Below, piece after piece: positions 13,396-16,446 of a stretch of DNA of 64,000 nt. The notes under the pieces are model-generated. The model did not search any database. It was given only the letters and a program-made list of their open reading frames with translations, and had not been told where the DNA came from. The stretch is from Hyunsoonleella aquatilis (GTDB lineage: Bacteria; Bacteroidota; Bacteroidia; Flavobacteriales; Flavobacteriaceae). Position 1 is the stretch's first letter. Each line of letters opens with the position of its first letter. Position numbers and translations under genes: made by a program. The stretch is from the NCBI RefSeq assembly GCF_014270105.1, contig NZ_JACNMF010000002.1, positions 558,001 to 622,000 of the forward strand, in the 5' to 3' direction.

Positions 13396-14337
13396 TTACA
13401 TTACAAACTTAGAGCTGATAGATCGGTTATGGTGTACTTTGTCCATCACTTCAGCAAATAAATCCGCACAGCTCAATACTCTAATTTTATCGCTTTTTTG
13501 GGTTAACGGAATGGAATCTGTTACGATTAATTCCTCCAATTTAGATTCGGCCAATCTTTCATAGGCAGTTCCTGACAATACAGGATGCGTACAAATGGCT
13601 CTAACACTGAGCGCTCCTCTTTCCATCATTAAATCAGCAGCTTTGGTTAATGTACCCGCAGTGTCTACCATGTCATCTACCAAAACAACATTCTTACCCT
13701 TTACATCACCAATTAATTCCATATGCGAAATCACATTGGCCTTTGCGCGTTGTTTGTAGCAGATTACCACATCGCTCTCCAATGCTTTTGAATAGGCATA
13801 AGCCCTTTTCGATCCACCCATATCCGGAGATGCTACCGTTAAATTCGGCAGATTTAAACTTTTCAAATAGGGCAAAAATATAATAGAGGCATATAAATGA
13901 TCTACGGGCTTTTCAAAAAACCCTTGAATTTGATCAGCATGCAAATCCATCGTTATAATTCTCGTAGCACCGGCAGCCTCCAACATTTTGGCTACTAATT
14001 TTGCCGCAATCGGCACCCTTGGTTTGTCTTTTCTATCCTGTCTTGCCCAACCGAAATAAGGCATTACCGCAGTAATATGTCTTGCAGAAGCTCGTTTGGC
14101 TGCATCGACCATCAACAACATTTCCATTAAATTCCTTGGCTCAGGATGTGTTGACCCAATGATGAAAATTCTTGTCCCCCGGATGGATTCCTCATAAGAT
14201 GGTTGGAATTCCCCATCACTGTAGGTAGAGGTAATTACATTGCCCAAAGGTTCTCCAAATGCTTTGGCAATTTTTTCACCCAATTCCCTACTTTGAGTAC
14301 AAGCAAAAATCTTTGCTTCTGTATTTACAACGGCCAT
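13396..14337 (-). CDS. prs: Ribose-phosphate pyrophosphokinase (PRPP synthetase)
   Basis: This 313-residue protein makes PRPP from ribose 5-phosphate and ATP for nucleotide, histidine and NAD synthesis. The N-terminus has the family pattern FACTQSRELGEKIAKAFG and YSDGEFQPSYEESIRG. The ATP and Mg sites are FGWARQDRKDKPRVPI and ITMDLHADQIQGFF. The PRPP-binding loop is VVLVDDMVDTAGTL. The length matches class I enzymes. The start at 14337 follows a TAAATTTG -7 box at 14398-14391 by 53 bases. L25 follows closely downstream. Confidence 0.98.
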   Translation of the reverse strand: MAVVNTEAKIFACTQSRELGEKIAKAFGEPLGNVITSTYSDGEFQPSYEESIRGTRIFIIGSTHPEPRNLMEMLLMVDAAKRASARHITAVMPYFGWARQDRKDKPRVPIAAKLVAKMLEAAGATRIITMDLHADQIQGFFEKPVDHLYASIIFLPYLKSLNLPNLTVASPDMGGSKRAYAYSKALESDVVICYKQRAKANVISHMELIGDVKGKNVVLVDDMVDTAGTLTKAADLMMERGALSVRAICTHPVLSGTAYERLAESKLEELIVTDSIPLTQKSDKIRVLSCADLFAEVMDKVHHNRSISSKFVM

Positions 14338-14390
14338 GGTTAACGTGTTGTTTAGGCAGTGCTTAAGCCACCTTAATTTTTAACGAGGTG

Positions 14391-14398
14391 CAAATTTA
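14391..14398 (-). promoter_or_regulatory. -7 promoter element (TAAATTTG) of prs
   Basis: The reverse strand reads TAAATTTGC, matching TAnnTTTG, upstream of the prs-rplY unit. Confidence 0.6.
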
Positions 14399-14464
14399 TA
14401 CATTTATTTTAACCTGAAACCCATATTGCTTAGTATTTTTTGATTGTAATTCCAGAAAAAAAAT

Positions 14465-14472
14465 TATTTTTG
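14465..14472 (+). promoter_or_regulatory. -7 promoter element (TATTTTTG) of the tRNA-Leu locus
   Basis: TATTTTTG followed by C lies 13 bases before the first tRNA-Leu fragment. This is the distance expected for a promoter that once drove the intact tRNA directly. Confidence 0.6.
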
Positions 14473-14484
14473 CAGTCCAAAATC

Positions 14485-14524
14485 GCTCAAGTGGCAATCC
14501 CGATAGCTATCGGGAGGTAGACGC
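14485..14524 (+). pseudogene. tRNA-Leu 5' fragment 1, interrupted in the D arm by a palindrome
   Basis: GCTCAAGTGGC (14485-14495) and GGTAGACGC (14516-14524) are identical to the 5' part of the intact tRNA-Leu at 14866. Between them the short GGAATT segment is replaced by AA plus TCCCGATAGCTATCGGGA (14498-14515), the palindrome also found at 2198, 4060 and 60948. The rest of the tRNA is missing. Confidence 0.8.
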
Positions 14525-14530
14525 ACAAAT

Positions 14531-14579
14531 GCTCAAGTGGCGGAATTGGTAGACCTGTCTGCCGACAGGCAGGCGCGCT
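14531..14579 (+). pseudogene. tRNA-Leu 5' fragment 2, interrupted in the D arm by a second palindrome family
   Basis: 14531-14554 matches the first 24 bases of the intact tRNA-Leu exactly. A 19-base CTGTCTGCCGACAGGCAGG insert (14555-14573) follows. CGCGCT (14574-14579) then resumes the tRNA, and homology ends there. The insert is a variant of the perfect palindrome CCTGCCTGCCGGCAGGCAGG at 56261-56280. Confidence 0.8.
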
Positions 14580-14602
14580 TAGCAAGATATGTTCTTAAAA
14601 TT

Positions 14603-14863
14603 ATGTTTTATATTTATGCAATTGCCAGCGTTGAAAAGAACTATATTTATGTGGGGTTGACAAAAAATGTGGATGATCGAGTTCTTAGGCATAATATGGG
14701 AAGAGAAAGAACGACTAGAGCTTATCGCCCATTCGAATTGATCTTCGAAGAATCTGTAGATGGTTCAAGAAGTGAAGCTCGAAAAAGAGAAAAATATTGG
14801 AAATCTGGAGTTGGAAAAGAACAGCTCAGAAAGATTAGAGATAAACACAGACTATCAAGTTAA
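14603..14863 (+). CDS. Small GIY-YIG nuclease-domain protein lodged between tRNA-Leu copies
   Basis: The 86-residue protein starts MFYIYAIASVEKNYIYVGLTKNVDDRVLRHN. The paired YIYAI...YVGLT strands are the GIY-YIG signature, Arg26-His30 helps form the active site, and the basic helix SRSEARKREKYWKSGVGKE follows. The ATG at 14603 is preferred; the frame stays open upstream to 14537, but that part is tRNA fragment and palindrome. It has the single-domain length of the UPF0213/YhbQ-like group. The gene is bounded by direct repeats of the tRNA-Leu 5' end, with the intact tRNA 2 bases after its stop, which suggests a mobile or tRNA-targeting element. Function is inferred from the domain only. Confidence 0.85.
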   Translation: MFYIYAIASVEKNYIYVGLTKNVDDRVLRHNMGRERTTRAYRPFELIFEESVDGSRSEARKREKYWKSGVGKEQLRKIRDKHRLSS

Positions 14864-14865
14864 AT

Positions 14866-14947
14866 GCTCAAGTGGCGGAATTGGTAGACGCGCTGGATTC
14901 AAAATCCAGTTCCTTCGGGAGTGTGGGTTCGATTCCCACCTTGAGTA
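14866..14947 (+). tRNA. tRNA-Leu (anticodon CAA)
   Basis: The 82-base gene folds completely. The acceptor GCTCAAG pairs with CTTGAGT (terminal G-U), followed by discriminator A. The anticodon stem CTGGA/TCCAG encloses loop TTCAAAA with anticodon CAA. There is a class II variable arm (TTCCTTCGGGAGT), and the T arm is GTGGG-TTCGATT-CCCAC. CCA is not encoded. Transcription must now pass through two tRNA fragments and the GIY-YIG gene, or start inside that region. Confidence 0.97.
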
Positions 14948-14953
14948 CTTCAC

Positions 14954-14991
14954 GGGACAAATCAGATTTTTTTTTGATTTGTCCCTTTTTT
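14954..14991 (+). terminator. Rho-independent terminator after tRNA-Leu
   Basis: GGGACAAATCA pairs perfectly with TGATTTGTCCC around a T-rich loop and is followed by TTTTTT. Confidence 0.9.
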
Positions 14992-15069
14992 ATTTCCCTT
15001 GAATCCCTTGTTAACACTGAAAATATTTAAACCTATCGGGTTGGCATCATCATTTGAATATGATTAAAA

Positions 15070-16446
15070 TCAAATATTCAAAAACACCAAACTGACCACA
15101 GTGCCTTCTCCTTCTTTACTTTTAACTAAAAGTTTCCCCTTATGAAGGAGTATAATTTGCTTACATAAGCTCAGCCCTATCCCACTACCTGTTTTTTTAG
15201 TAGTAAAAAATGGAACAAAAATACTTTCCATAATCTCTTCGGGAATACCCTTTCCGTTGTCTATTATTTTTAAAACTACCTGACCTTCAATATTTTTAAG
15301 TGCTTTAATACTAATGCTTGGATTTTCAACTTCTTTACAAGCTTCAACAGCATTTAATATCAGATTAATAAGCACTTGTTCTATTAAATAAGTGTCTATT
15401 TCTATCTCCAAGGATGTGTTTTCATTCTCAAATAGAAGTGCGATATTTTTTCCTTCTAGAGAAGGCTCCATCAGGGTTTTTATATTTCCGAAAAGACTGT
15501 CAACTTTTATTTTACTTAAGTTTAATTTGGTAATTTTATTTAAACTTCGGTAGGTTTTAGCAAATTTTAATAAGCCTTCACTGCGTTTTTTGATGCTTTC
15601 TATACCCACATCTAAATCTTCTATATCAAGGGGGTGTTCATCTGGGTCTTGTTGGGATAGTTCTACTTTAGATTGTAATGTTTCGGCTAATGAGGAAATG
15701 GGTGCAATGGAATTCATGATTTCATGTGTCATCACACTCAACAACTTTTTCCAAGCTTCAGATTCATTTTTATTTAAAGTATCATCAATATTTTGTAATG
15801 CTATAAGTTTAAAAGTATTGGATTCTATTTCAAAAATCGAATTTGAAATAAGCAAATTGGTGTTTTCATTAGCTATGGACACCGTAATATTTTCGCTATC
15901 GGAATATTTTTTTGAAAAGATGGCTTCATAAAGCGTGGCATTCCGGTTTTTTACAAATCCTATATTTTTTAATGAAGGAATGTTAATCAATTTTTTAAAC
16001 GCTTCATTCACCCACAAAACATCGCCCGACTTGACATTGTAAGCTATAATGCCCGTTTCTACCATCTCCAATATTTTTTGAAGGTAAAGATGTTGTGCCT
16101 CTTTTTCTTTGTTGATTTCCAGTACCGTTTTATTGACTTCGTTGAAACCTTTATGGAGTTCTTGAATATCTTCTCTAGAAGATGTTTCGTTGAACCAACG
16201 TGAAAAATCCCTGTACTTTACCGATTCAAAAAACTCGTCCATTTCCTGAAACCGCTTAAAAACAAATCTGTAAAGGTTTACAAAACTAAAAACCGCGATA
16301 ATCAATAAAACACCAGCTATTAGTGCCCTGTAGGAGACTAAGGTTTCTGAATCCAATAAACCTATAAAAAACGCGAAACCAATGAGCGACAATAATAAAA
16401 CAAGAACTCTTATTGCAAGCGCTAATTTGTATTTTTTATAAGCCAT
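15070..16446 (-). CDS. Membrane sensor histidine kinase (NtrB-like)
   Basis: This 458-residue protein has two membrane spans close to the N-terminus ([18 protein letters not shown] and [18 protein letters not shown]) with almost no periplasmic loop. A PAS-like segment lies near 110-220 ([26 protein letters not shown]). The phospho-acceptor motif is [14 protein letters not shown], where HEIMNSI replaces the usual HELRNPL. The ATPase domain has [23 protein letters not shown] and [12 protein letters not shown]. It probably senses from the membrane or cytoplasm. It overlaps the upstream sigma-54 regulator gene by 11 bases, so the two form a coupled pair. The divergent ABC exporter operon is the likely target. 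Confidence 0.92.

Follow-up and report, generated by a model that had tools for sequence, protein, structure and literature searches.

Among the described systems, the closest to the locus reported here is SegB of phages T4/T6 (PMC13096335), a homing endonuclease of the GIY-YIG type whose free-standing gene lies in the phage tRNA region. That source states that SegB cuts inside tRNA genes with a preference for RAWTSGAAC, that tandem amplification of tRNA together with segB requires SegB activity and depends on recombination genes, and that low efficiency in cutting their own allele is typical of free-standing GIY-YIG enzymes (PMC13096335). In our analysis, the reverse complement of the SegB motif, GTTCSAWTY, fits the tRNA T-arm, and the corresponding stretch in the tRNA of the window (the whole 64,000-nucleotide stretch of Hyunsoonleella aquatilis DNA that was analyzed) is GTTCGATTC. 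The family of the window's nuclease shares with SegB a GIY-YIG gene that lies outside an intron and adjoins tRNA genes, as well as tandem units of tRNA and nuclease; the motif of SegB fits the T-arm, and the inserts of loci with a displaced 3′ tRNA end (3′-type loci) cluster at the same arm. In contrast, SegB is phage-borne, whereas the window family is found in bacterial chromosomes of at least two phyla and at 18 tRNA isotypes, is represented in the window by a protein of 86 aa, and has no cleavage data. It also differs in splitting and regenerating the tRNA, with a displaced end that is interrupted by a hairpin.

Replacement of a gene end by an inserted element is found elsewhere. In the Allomyces mitochondrial ORF360 element, an endonuclease gene located in atp6 brings a replacement gene end. 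This element resembles the present one in that an endonuclease gene sits in a host gene whose function is kept by the replacement end, but it concerns a protein gene in a fungal mitochondrion and its new end is foreign; to our knowledge, it has no link to tRNA families. Integrative islands attach in tRNA genes that are regenerated by an element-borne end, and a tRNA target regenerated by a carried end is what they share with the window's element. The insert in the window, however, is only a few hundred bp long and has one small nuclease gene and no integrase, and a further contrast with the islands is that in 110 of 176 loci the gene precedes the tRNA, so that it is a 5′ end that is duplicated wherever such a locus has a fragment. 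REP/RAYT systems, Rickettsia palindromic elements and mitochondrial double-hairpin elements are short dispersed hairpins that also occur inside RNA genes. The window family differs from them in having no HUH transposase and in carrying its hairpins in a displaced tRNA end beside a GIY-YIG gene.

We propose, at a probability of roughly two in three, that the locus is a chromosomal, free-standing, SegB-like GIY-YIG homing element that invades tRNA genes, in which cutting and transfer are inferred from sequence comparison and computational analysis. The arrangement would then be a variant of free-standing homing elements; the stronger reading, in which the hairpin system is of a new kind, is less likely.

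An interrupted and regenerated tRNA-Leu(CAA) gene

Direct reading of the + strand of the window, which comes from a genome of 3.93 Mb in 21 contigs, gave the order promoter-like TATTTTTG, tRNA-Leu 5′ fragment 1, tRNA-Leu 5′ fragment 2, GIY-YIG gene and intact tRNA-Leu(CAA). The promoter-like TATTTTTG (14465 to 14472, + strand) contains TANNTTTG, which we take to be the −7 motif of Bacteroidetes; it is read as the native tRNA-Leu promoter left upstream of both fragments, and the same motif precedes the tRNA in congeners with an empty site. Fragment 1 (14485 to 14526, + strand) is composed of GCTCAAGTGGC, AA, TCCCGATAGCTATCGGGA and then GGTAGACGCAC. Its palindrome TCCCGATAGCTATCGGGA (14498 to 14515, no strand assigned) replaces the D-loop letters GGAATT of the tRNA and is a dispersed repeat. 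Fragment 2 (14531 to 14579, + strand), which we read as the displaced end of the present insertion, starts with 23 nt identical to the intact tRNA, continues with the 20-mer palindrome CCTGTCTGCCGACAGGCAGG in the D-arm (14554 to 14573, no strand assigned) and ends with CGCGCT. A search with the intact tRNA recovered fragment 2 with 24 identical nt (E = 1.2e-5), and the identical 20-mer was present at the same site in 7 of 11 related loci among the matches listed.

Behind the fragments lies a free-standing small GIY-YIG endonuclease gene of 86 aa (ATG at 14603 to stop at 14863, + strand; PF01541, E = 2.5e-15), followed by the intact, regenerated tRNA-Leu(CAA) (14866 to 14948, + strand), which was detected by ARAGORN and matched Rfam RF00005 with 61.9 bits over 14866 to 14947. 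Over 82 nt, this tRNA shows 100% identity with that of congener G006, in which the site is empty. Direct reading, PF01541 and ARAGORN thus bear out an earlier note on this DNA, which had described successive tRNA-Leu 5′ ends, two of them broken by palindromes, followed by a GIY-YIG gene and an intact tRNA. The palindrome that it reported in the second copy is also present, but the 19-mer given there misses the first C of the 20-mer.

No group I or other intron family was matched by Rfam at E ≤ 1 within positions 13500 to 15500. Since the tRNA-Leu lies outside the insert and is complete, the criterion for a group I intron, an interrupted functional tRNA that is spliced, is not met; the locus does meet that for a homing endonuclease gene located outside a self-splicing intron or intein. 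No integrase gene, the mark of a tRNA-integrating genomic island, was found in the stretch from fragment 1 to the tRNA-Leu(CAA), where the GIY-YIG gene is the sole frame with a family match; an 80-aa frame at 14760 to 15002 overlaps both the GIY-YIG gene and the tRNA. Likewise, the hallmark of REP/RAYT systems, a Y1/HUH transposase flanked by REPs, was not met, the gene of the insert being a PF01541 member.

Occupied, empty and scarred sites in congeners

All 12 congeneric genomes (Hyunsoonleella, G000 to G011, with the window genome as G000) have the tRNA-Leu(CAA) locus. Nine of the loci are empty, with the tRNA directly behind the old promoter; two are occupied (the window and G011); and one, in G009, is a scar without the gene. 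Present and absent alleles thus occur at one site among close relatives, as required of a homing element. Alignment of G004 (empty) with G011 (occupied) revealed nearly identical left flanks and an identical right-hand tRNA, and because the two match on both sides, the insert can be defined as the displaced end, the gene and the new end. At the level of sequence, the comparison shows an insert at a tRNA that is plain in most congeners, an intact regenerated tRNA and a nuclease gene placed behind the old tRNA promoter.

These results come from the alignment of tRNA-Leu(CAA) loci with and without the GIY-YIG gene that the earlier note had called for, and the contrast between empty and occupied sites fits its view of an element that targets a tRNA and brings a replacement end. 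The note had also held that palindromes at this position without a tRNA duplication would refute that view; none was seen in the 12 congeneric genomes. What needed revision is the role of the palindromes. The insert does bring a new 5′ end, but this end is not carried by the palindromes, which are hairpins dispersed in the genome and located here in the displaced fragment.

In G009, a 5′ fragment whose first site holds an insert and whose second holds a 6-bp hairpin stands immediately before the intact tRNA, and no nuclease gene is present; it looks like a locus from which the element was lost, with the scar left behind. Fragment 1 of the window has no nuclease gene directly behind it and so fits a gene-less scar of the kind seen in G009. 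Repeated insertion at one site, as previously suggested for the window, is accordingly best read with fragment 1 as the scar of an earlier invasion; fragment 2 fits a second one, the order of the two being inferred.

We also considered the possibility that the intact tRNA had been altered to resist cutting. This was rejected both for the window, whose tRNA does not differ from the one at the empty site of G006, and for G011, whose tRNA is identical to that of G004. In the occupied allele, the displaced end is interrupted, yet the intact tRNA equals that of an empty site.

Linkage of the nuclease family to tRNA genes

A contig search with the window protein yielded 55 relatives. With a profile (A1) built from 31 proteins, matches at E ≤ 1e-18 were found in 70 of the 395 Bacteroidota genomes searched, and matches at E ≤ 1e-15 in 167 of 379 genomes belonging to the phylum of a Peregrinibacteria genome, presumably Patescibacteria/CPR. 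In total, 215 loci were collected, comprising the 55 relatives, 60 loci from profile searches and 100 further ones; one of them (L147) is the window itself, and another (L180) repeats L136. The sampling is biased in that the profile was built mostly from tRNA-linked rows, closer matches were taken first, and the loci are not phylogenetically independent.

A tRNA gene was found within 200 bp of the GIY-YIG gene, always on the strand of the gene, in 176 of the 215 loci. The earlier note had stated that its reading would fall if the neighbors of GIY-YIG genes varied at random, and they do not. The linked share by set was 51/55, 27/30, 27/30, 44/60 and 27/40, being lower in the more distant sets (the last two). 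By distance, tRNAs occurred in 174 of 416 flanks at 0 to 200 bp, 29 of 412 at 200 to 400 bp, 4 of 406 at 400 to 600 bp and 2 of 402 at 600 to 800 bp, and the 0- to 200-bp flanks contained 187 tRNAs on the strand of the gene and 0 on the opposite strand. The linked tRNAs represent 37 anticodons and 18 isotypes, with Leu the commonest (74/176). Hence tRNA-Leu, previously named as the target, holds for the window, but the relatives are not confined to it. Replacement of the 5′ end is likewise correct here without being general: the gene precedes the tRNA in 110 loci; in the other 66 it follows the tRNA, and the fragment is a 3′ end. With these corrections, the interpretation given in the earlier note is supported, while cutting by the nuclease remains unproven.

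For the 39 relatives without a tRNA within 200 bp, an Rfam search for a second RNA target returned one tmRNA and a few distant or partial tRNAs, none of them general. At the tmRNA locus (L302, 341 to 1240), a GIY-YIG gene of the window's family lies about 240 bp downstream of the tmRNA gene with a tandemly repeated segment between them; the tmRNA is perhaps the target there. A search for a mobile vehicle gave one weak match in phages, none in plasmids and one weak match in viral contigs, leaving the vehicle between genomes unidentified. In the literature, no GIY-YIG genes in palindrome-bearing split bacterial tRNA genes were found among the matches listed; subscription journals and preprints were mostly not covered, so that absence is unproven.

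The nuclease protein

Y5, Y16, R26, H30 and E50, presumably the catalytic residues, are invariant in 31 of 31 rows of A1. Together with the PF01541 match, they satisfy what is expected of a homing-family nuclease domain with an intact active site. In all 11 pairs of Leu-linked genes, dN was lower than dS (ratio, about 0.04 to 0.37); by these estimates, the Leu-linked nuclease genes are under purifying selection. The predicted structure is confident (pLDDT, 94.9) and GIY-YIG-like. Its nearest solved folds in Foldseek were UPF0213 (1zg2), Slx1 (7cq2) and the catalytic domain of I-TevI (1ln0), all at E > 0.001. The fold is what these proteins share with the window protein; a difference is that neither a partner protein nor a DNA-binding extension was seen for the latter. 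To judge by no more than the title of structure 6sei, Slx1 acts on branched DNA.

A tree was built from 165 proteins including that of the window, with L147, L180 and matches that contained stops or were shorter than 60 aa left out; L137 and L141 were left out of the phylum counts. The tree required 54 isotype changes, versus 94.3 ± 1.9 with shuffled labels and 91.3 ± 2.1 with labels shuffled within phylum (100 shuffles each), and for CPR alone the numbers were 35 versus 43.5 ± 1.5. Since isotype changes are fewer than in the shuffles, nuclease lineage and tRNA target travel together, and inheritance in place adds to this association. The nearest relative across phyla shared the isotype for 65 of 163 proteins; shuffles also reached 65 (mean, 18.2), probably because a few hub proteins serve as the nearest neighbor, and this figure is given no weight here.

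Displaced tRNA ends and their insertion sites

By split alignment at a score of 14, a piece of the same tRNA was detected beyond the gene in 137 of 175 loci, versus 3 of 175 when each tRNA was tried on windows of another isotype; one of the 176 linked loci had no usable window. At a score of 12, 26 of the 175 tRNA-linked loci showed no fragment. An insertion of at least 10 nt was present in 86 of the 137 fragments (median, 20.5 nt). In a first hairpin score, a stem of at least 6 occurred in 57 of these 86 inserts, and 42 of 86 beat all 20 shuffles. This score was weak for imperfect and double hairpins, and other rules were used in later filters. A second filter found a hairpin in 107 of 149 fragments versus 10 of 148 control windows; it still missed some hairpins, 42 of the 149 fragments having failed. 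A third filter, for which 7 of the 176 loci were skipped owing to short flanks, found hairpins in 115 of 169 fragment sides; the corresponding numbers were 13 of 169 for the far flanks and 49 of 169 for those beyond the tRNA, where the hairpins are probably terminators in part, although this is a guess.

In many loci, the hairpin interrupts the D-arm, the anticodon arm or the T-arm of the displaced end. Judged by eye, the inserts look precise and lack a target duplication; they include CCTGCCTGCCGGCAGGCAGG and its variants, which occur in both phyla and at several isotypes, as well as longer inserts of the form CCCGCCC...GGGCGGG and, at Ser and Pro tRNAs, double hairpins. Fragment and hairpin are alike in several genera. 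At two tRNA-Glu loci of different bacteria (L137 and L143), an identical 38-nt hairpin was noticed at slightly different D-arm positions.

The insertion sites are clustered. Among 3′-type fragments, the insert splits the T-arm GTTCRA in 16 of 28, versus 4.5 expected (0 of 100,000 draws). Among 5′-type fragments, it falls at tRNA positions 20 to 24 in 31 of 57, versus 8.7 expected, and in 23 of 42 versus 6.7 expected when Leu(CAA) was excluded. L180 was left out of this analysis, whose figures overstate certainty given the non-independence of related loci. Within one family of Leu-linked proteins, insertions of the 5′ type and of the 3′ type both occur, so the insertion site is not fixed by the protein alone.

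Tandem head-to-tail units, each a hairpin-interrupted fragment plus a gene, stand beside one intact tRNA at six loci (L153, L154, L166, L171, L338 and L343), with a period of 450 bp at L154. At least two GIY-YIG matches were present in 37 of the 215 loci, some of which may be broken single genes. At Leu(CAA) loci, TANNTTTG occurs within 30 nt 5′ of the first fragment in 21 of the 30 loci that have a fragment and 5′ of the intact tRNA in 4 of 34. Because the promoter stays 5′ of the displaced end and is rarely found before the intact tRNA, gene and tRNA are probably cotranscribed.

Dispersed palindromes

In the window genome, the 18-mer TCCCGATAGCTATCGGGA occurs at 117 places at ≤1 mismatch, and the 20-mer kind (CCTGTCTGCCGACAGGCAGG) at 12 places on the + strand at ≤1 mismatch; reversed-letter controls gave 0 in both cases. 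The palindromes are not private to tRNA genes but dispersed repeats, and the feature beyond chance is the arrangement. One candidate rule for their placement, a preference for the loops of other hairpins, was rejected, since flank complementarity in 27 contexts did not exceed that of shuffled pairing (p = 0.43). When up to 4 mismatches were allowed, the 20-mer was present on the fragment side of 57 of 169 loci, as opposed to 1 of 169 for the far flanks and 3 of 169 for those beyond the tRNA. Across the 395 Bacteroidota genomes, 42 carry both the dispersed 20-mer and the nuclease, 32 the palindrome only, 28 the nuclease only and 293 neither (odds ratio, 13.7; kinship was uncorrected, and the copy at the nuclease locus was counted). 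Within the genus, the link is weak: 20-mer copies number 17, 10, 8, 1, 0 and 1 in the genomes for which the loci examined include a tRNA-linked GIY-YIG gene (G000, G011, G002, G005, G007 and G009, respectively) versus 16, 0, 0, 2, 0 and 1 in those without (G004, G001, G003, G006, G008 and G010).

Proposed mechanism and alternatives

Under the homing reading, the nuclease would cut or nick an unoccupied tRNA gene within the conserved DNA of its D-arm or T-arm, and repair from an occupied copy would insert the unit. Cutting at these arms is proposed because the SegB motif matches the T-arm, where 3′-type inserts cluster. A hairpin at or near the cut site may mark and disable the site in the displaced end, protecting that end against cleavage or against recombination with the good copy. 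In the window, an earlier invasion would have left fragment 1 as its scar, whereas fragment 2, the gene and the intact tRNA would represent a re-invasion. Self-protection is left unexplained if the site lies wholly within the tRNA, because the intact tRNA on the gene side is the same as the tRNA of empty congeners. An extended form of this mechanism, which we regard as unlikely, makes the hairpins obligatory: each would enter the displaced end where it is cut, and the dispersed palindromes of Bacteroidota/Patescibacteria genomes would be seeded by these enzymes, their missing mobilizers.

The hairpins themselves may instead be the real mobile unit. RAYT transposases mobilize REPs, and small GIY-YIG nucleases might mobilize palindromes in a similar manner, the tRNA-linked copies being autonomous and the scattered ones nonautonomous. 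Recurrence of the same 20-mer in tRNA fragments across isotypes and phyla, its enrichment on the fragment side, its co-occurrence with the nuclease and the precise look of the inserts, without target duplication to the eye, all speak for such mobilization. The co-occurrence, however, is uncorrected for kinship and includes the copy at the nuclease locus, the link weakens within the genus, many fragments bear quite different hairpins, double ones included, and the dispersed palindromes have no preference for hairpin loops. We consider it improbable. A passive origin, in which palindromes accumulate fortuitously in pseudo-tRNA fragments and the neighboring gene has no relation to them, could appeal to the abundance of palindromes in the window genome and to the freedom of pseudo-tRNAs to decay. 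It is scarcely credible, being contradicted by the distance and strand controls, by matched versus mismatched tRNAs and by hairpins in fragments versus control windows, and the clustering of insertion sites speaks against chance.

It is also conceivable that the gene has been domesticated by the host and uses the tRNA promoter, with fragment and hairpin serving as a regulatory leader or tail of its mRNA. Retention of the old promoter upstream, purifying selection and the similarity of fragment and hairpin in several genera are compatible with this idea, but the gene is patchily distributed, with the site occupied in 2 of 12 congeners and profile matches at E ≤ 1e-18 in 70 of the 395 Bacteroidota genomes; moreover, G009 retains a scar that has no gene, and units pile up in tandem. 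The fragment lies now before and now behind the gene (tRNA downstream in 110 loci, upstream in 66), so no single leader or tail role can apply; domestication appears very improbable.

If the homing reading is true, many small GIY-YIG genes listed as generic nucleases are selfish elements that target essential tRNA genes, and regeneration of the tRNA keeps them tolerable to the host. The specificity of the nucleases would be readable from sequence and testable because insertion footprints have been left in 18 tRNA isotypes. The elements would tie bacterial chromosomes to the phage SegB system through target motif and tandem amplification, their hairpins would provide a direct test of what moves the palindromes scattered in these genomes, and they would explain partial tRNA copies that are missed by tRNA finders, as in the window.

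Other GIY-YIG loci in the genus

The window genome has 11 GIY-YIG matches, 8 of them in small frames. Three of the 8 adjoin tRNAs: that at the tRNA-Leu of the window, one at tRNA-Pro(GGG) and one between two tRNA-Val genes. The tRNA-Pro(GGG) locus repeats the layout of the window, with a 5′ fragment in which a palindrome takes the place of the anticodon arm, then the gene and the intact tRNA. Five small GIY-YIG genes away from tRNAs (L001, L002, L003, L004 and L007) seem by eye, without a count, to lie among repeats, some with repeats on both sides; this suggests a more general association of GIY-YIG genes with repeats. Genus-wide, a tRNA lies within 200 bp of 12 of 48 small GIY-YIG loci (8 of the window genome and 40 from congeners), so most GIY-YIG genes of the genus are not of the tRNA-linked type. 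The 40 congener regions are only part of the small GIY-YIG matches in congeners, and the Leu-linked locus of G011 lies outside them.

Several individual loci of the genus deserve description. In the window genome, a copy of TCCCGATAGCTATCGGGA stands immediately 5′ of another tRNA-Leu-like gene (L019, about 1501 to 1560). At the tRNA-Val locus (L008, 1260 to 1930; G000:C16, near 514400), the D-loop of a degenerate tRNA-Val is interrupted by CCTGCC...GGCAGG arms with a complete tRNA-Val(GAC) between them, so that one tRNA lies inside the hairpin of another; this nested pair is adjoined by a GIY-YIG gene and by tRNA-Val(TAC). In congeners, a GIY-YIG gene of another kind lies 3′ of tRNA-Asn(GTT) at L336, L339, L343 and L331, and a palindrome in the 3′ fragment replaces the 5′ half of the anticodon arm. 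At tRNA-Pro(TGG) loci of congeners (L326, L332, L335 and L338), the displaced copy is nearly a whole tRNA, so a tRNA-like shape may persist; its T-arm is replaced by other hairpins, and at L326, L335 and L338 the D-loop is likewise replaced by a hairpin.
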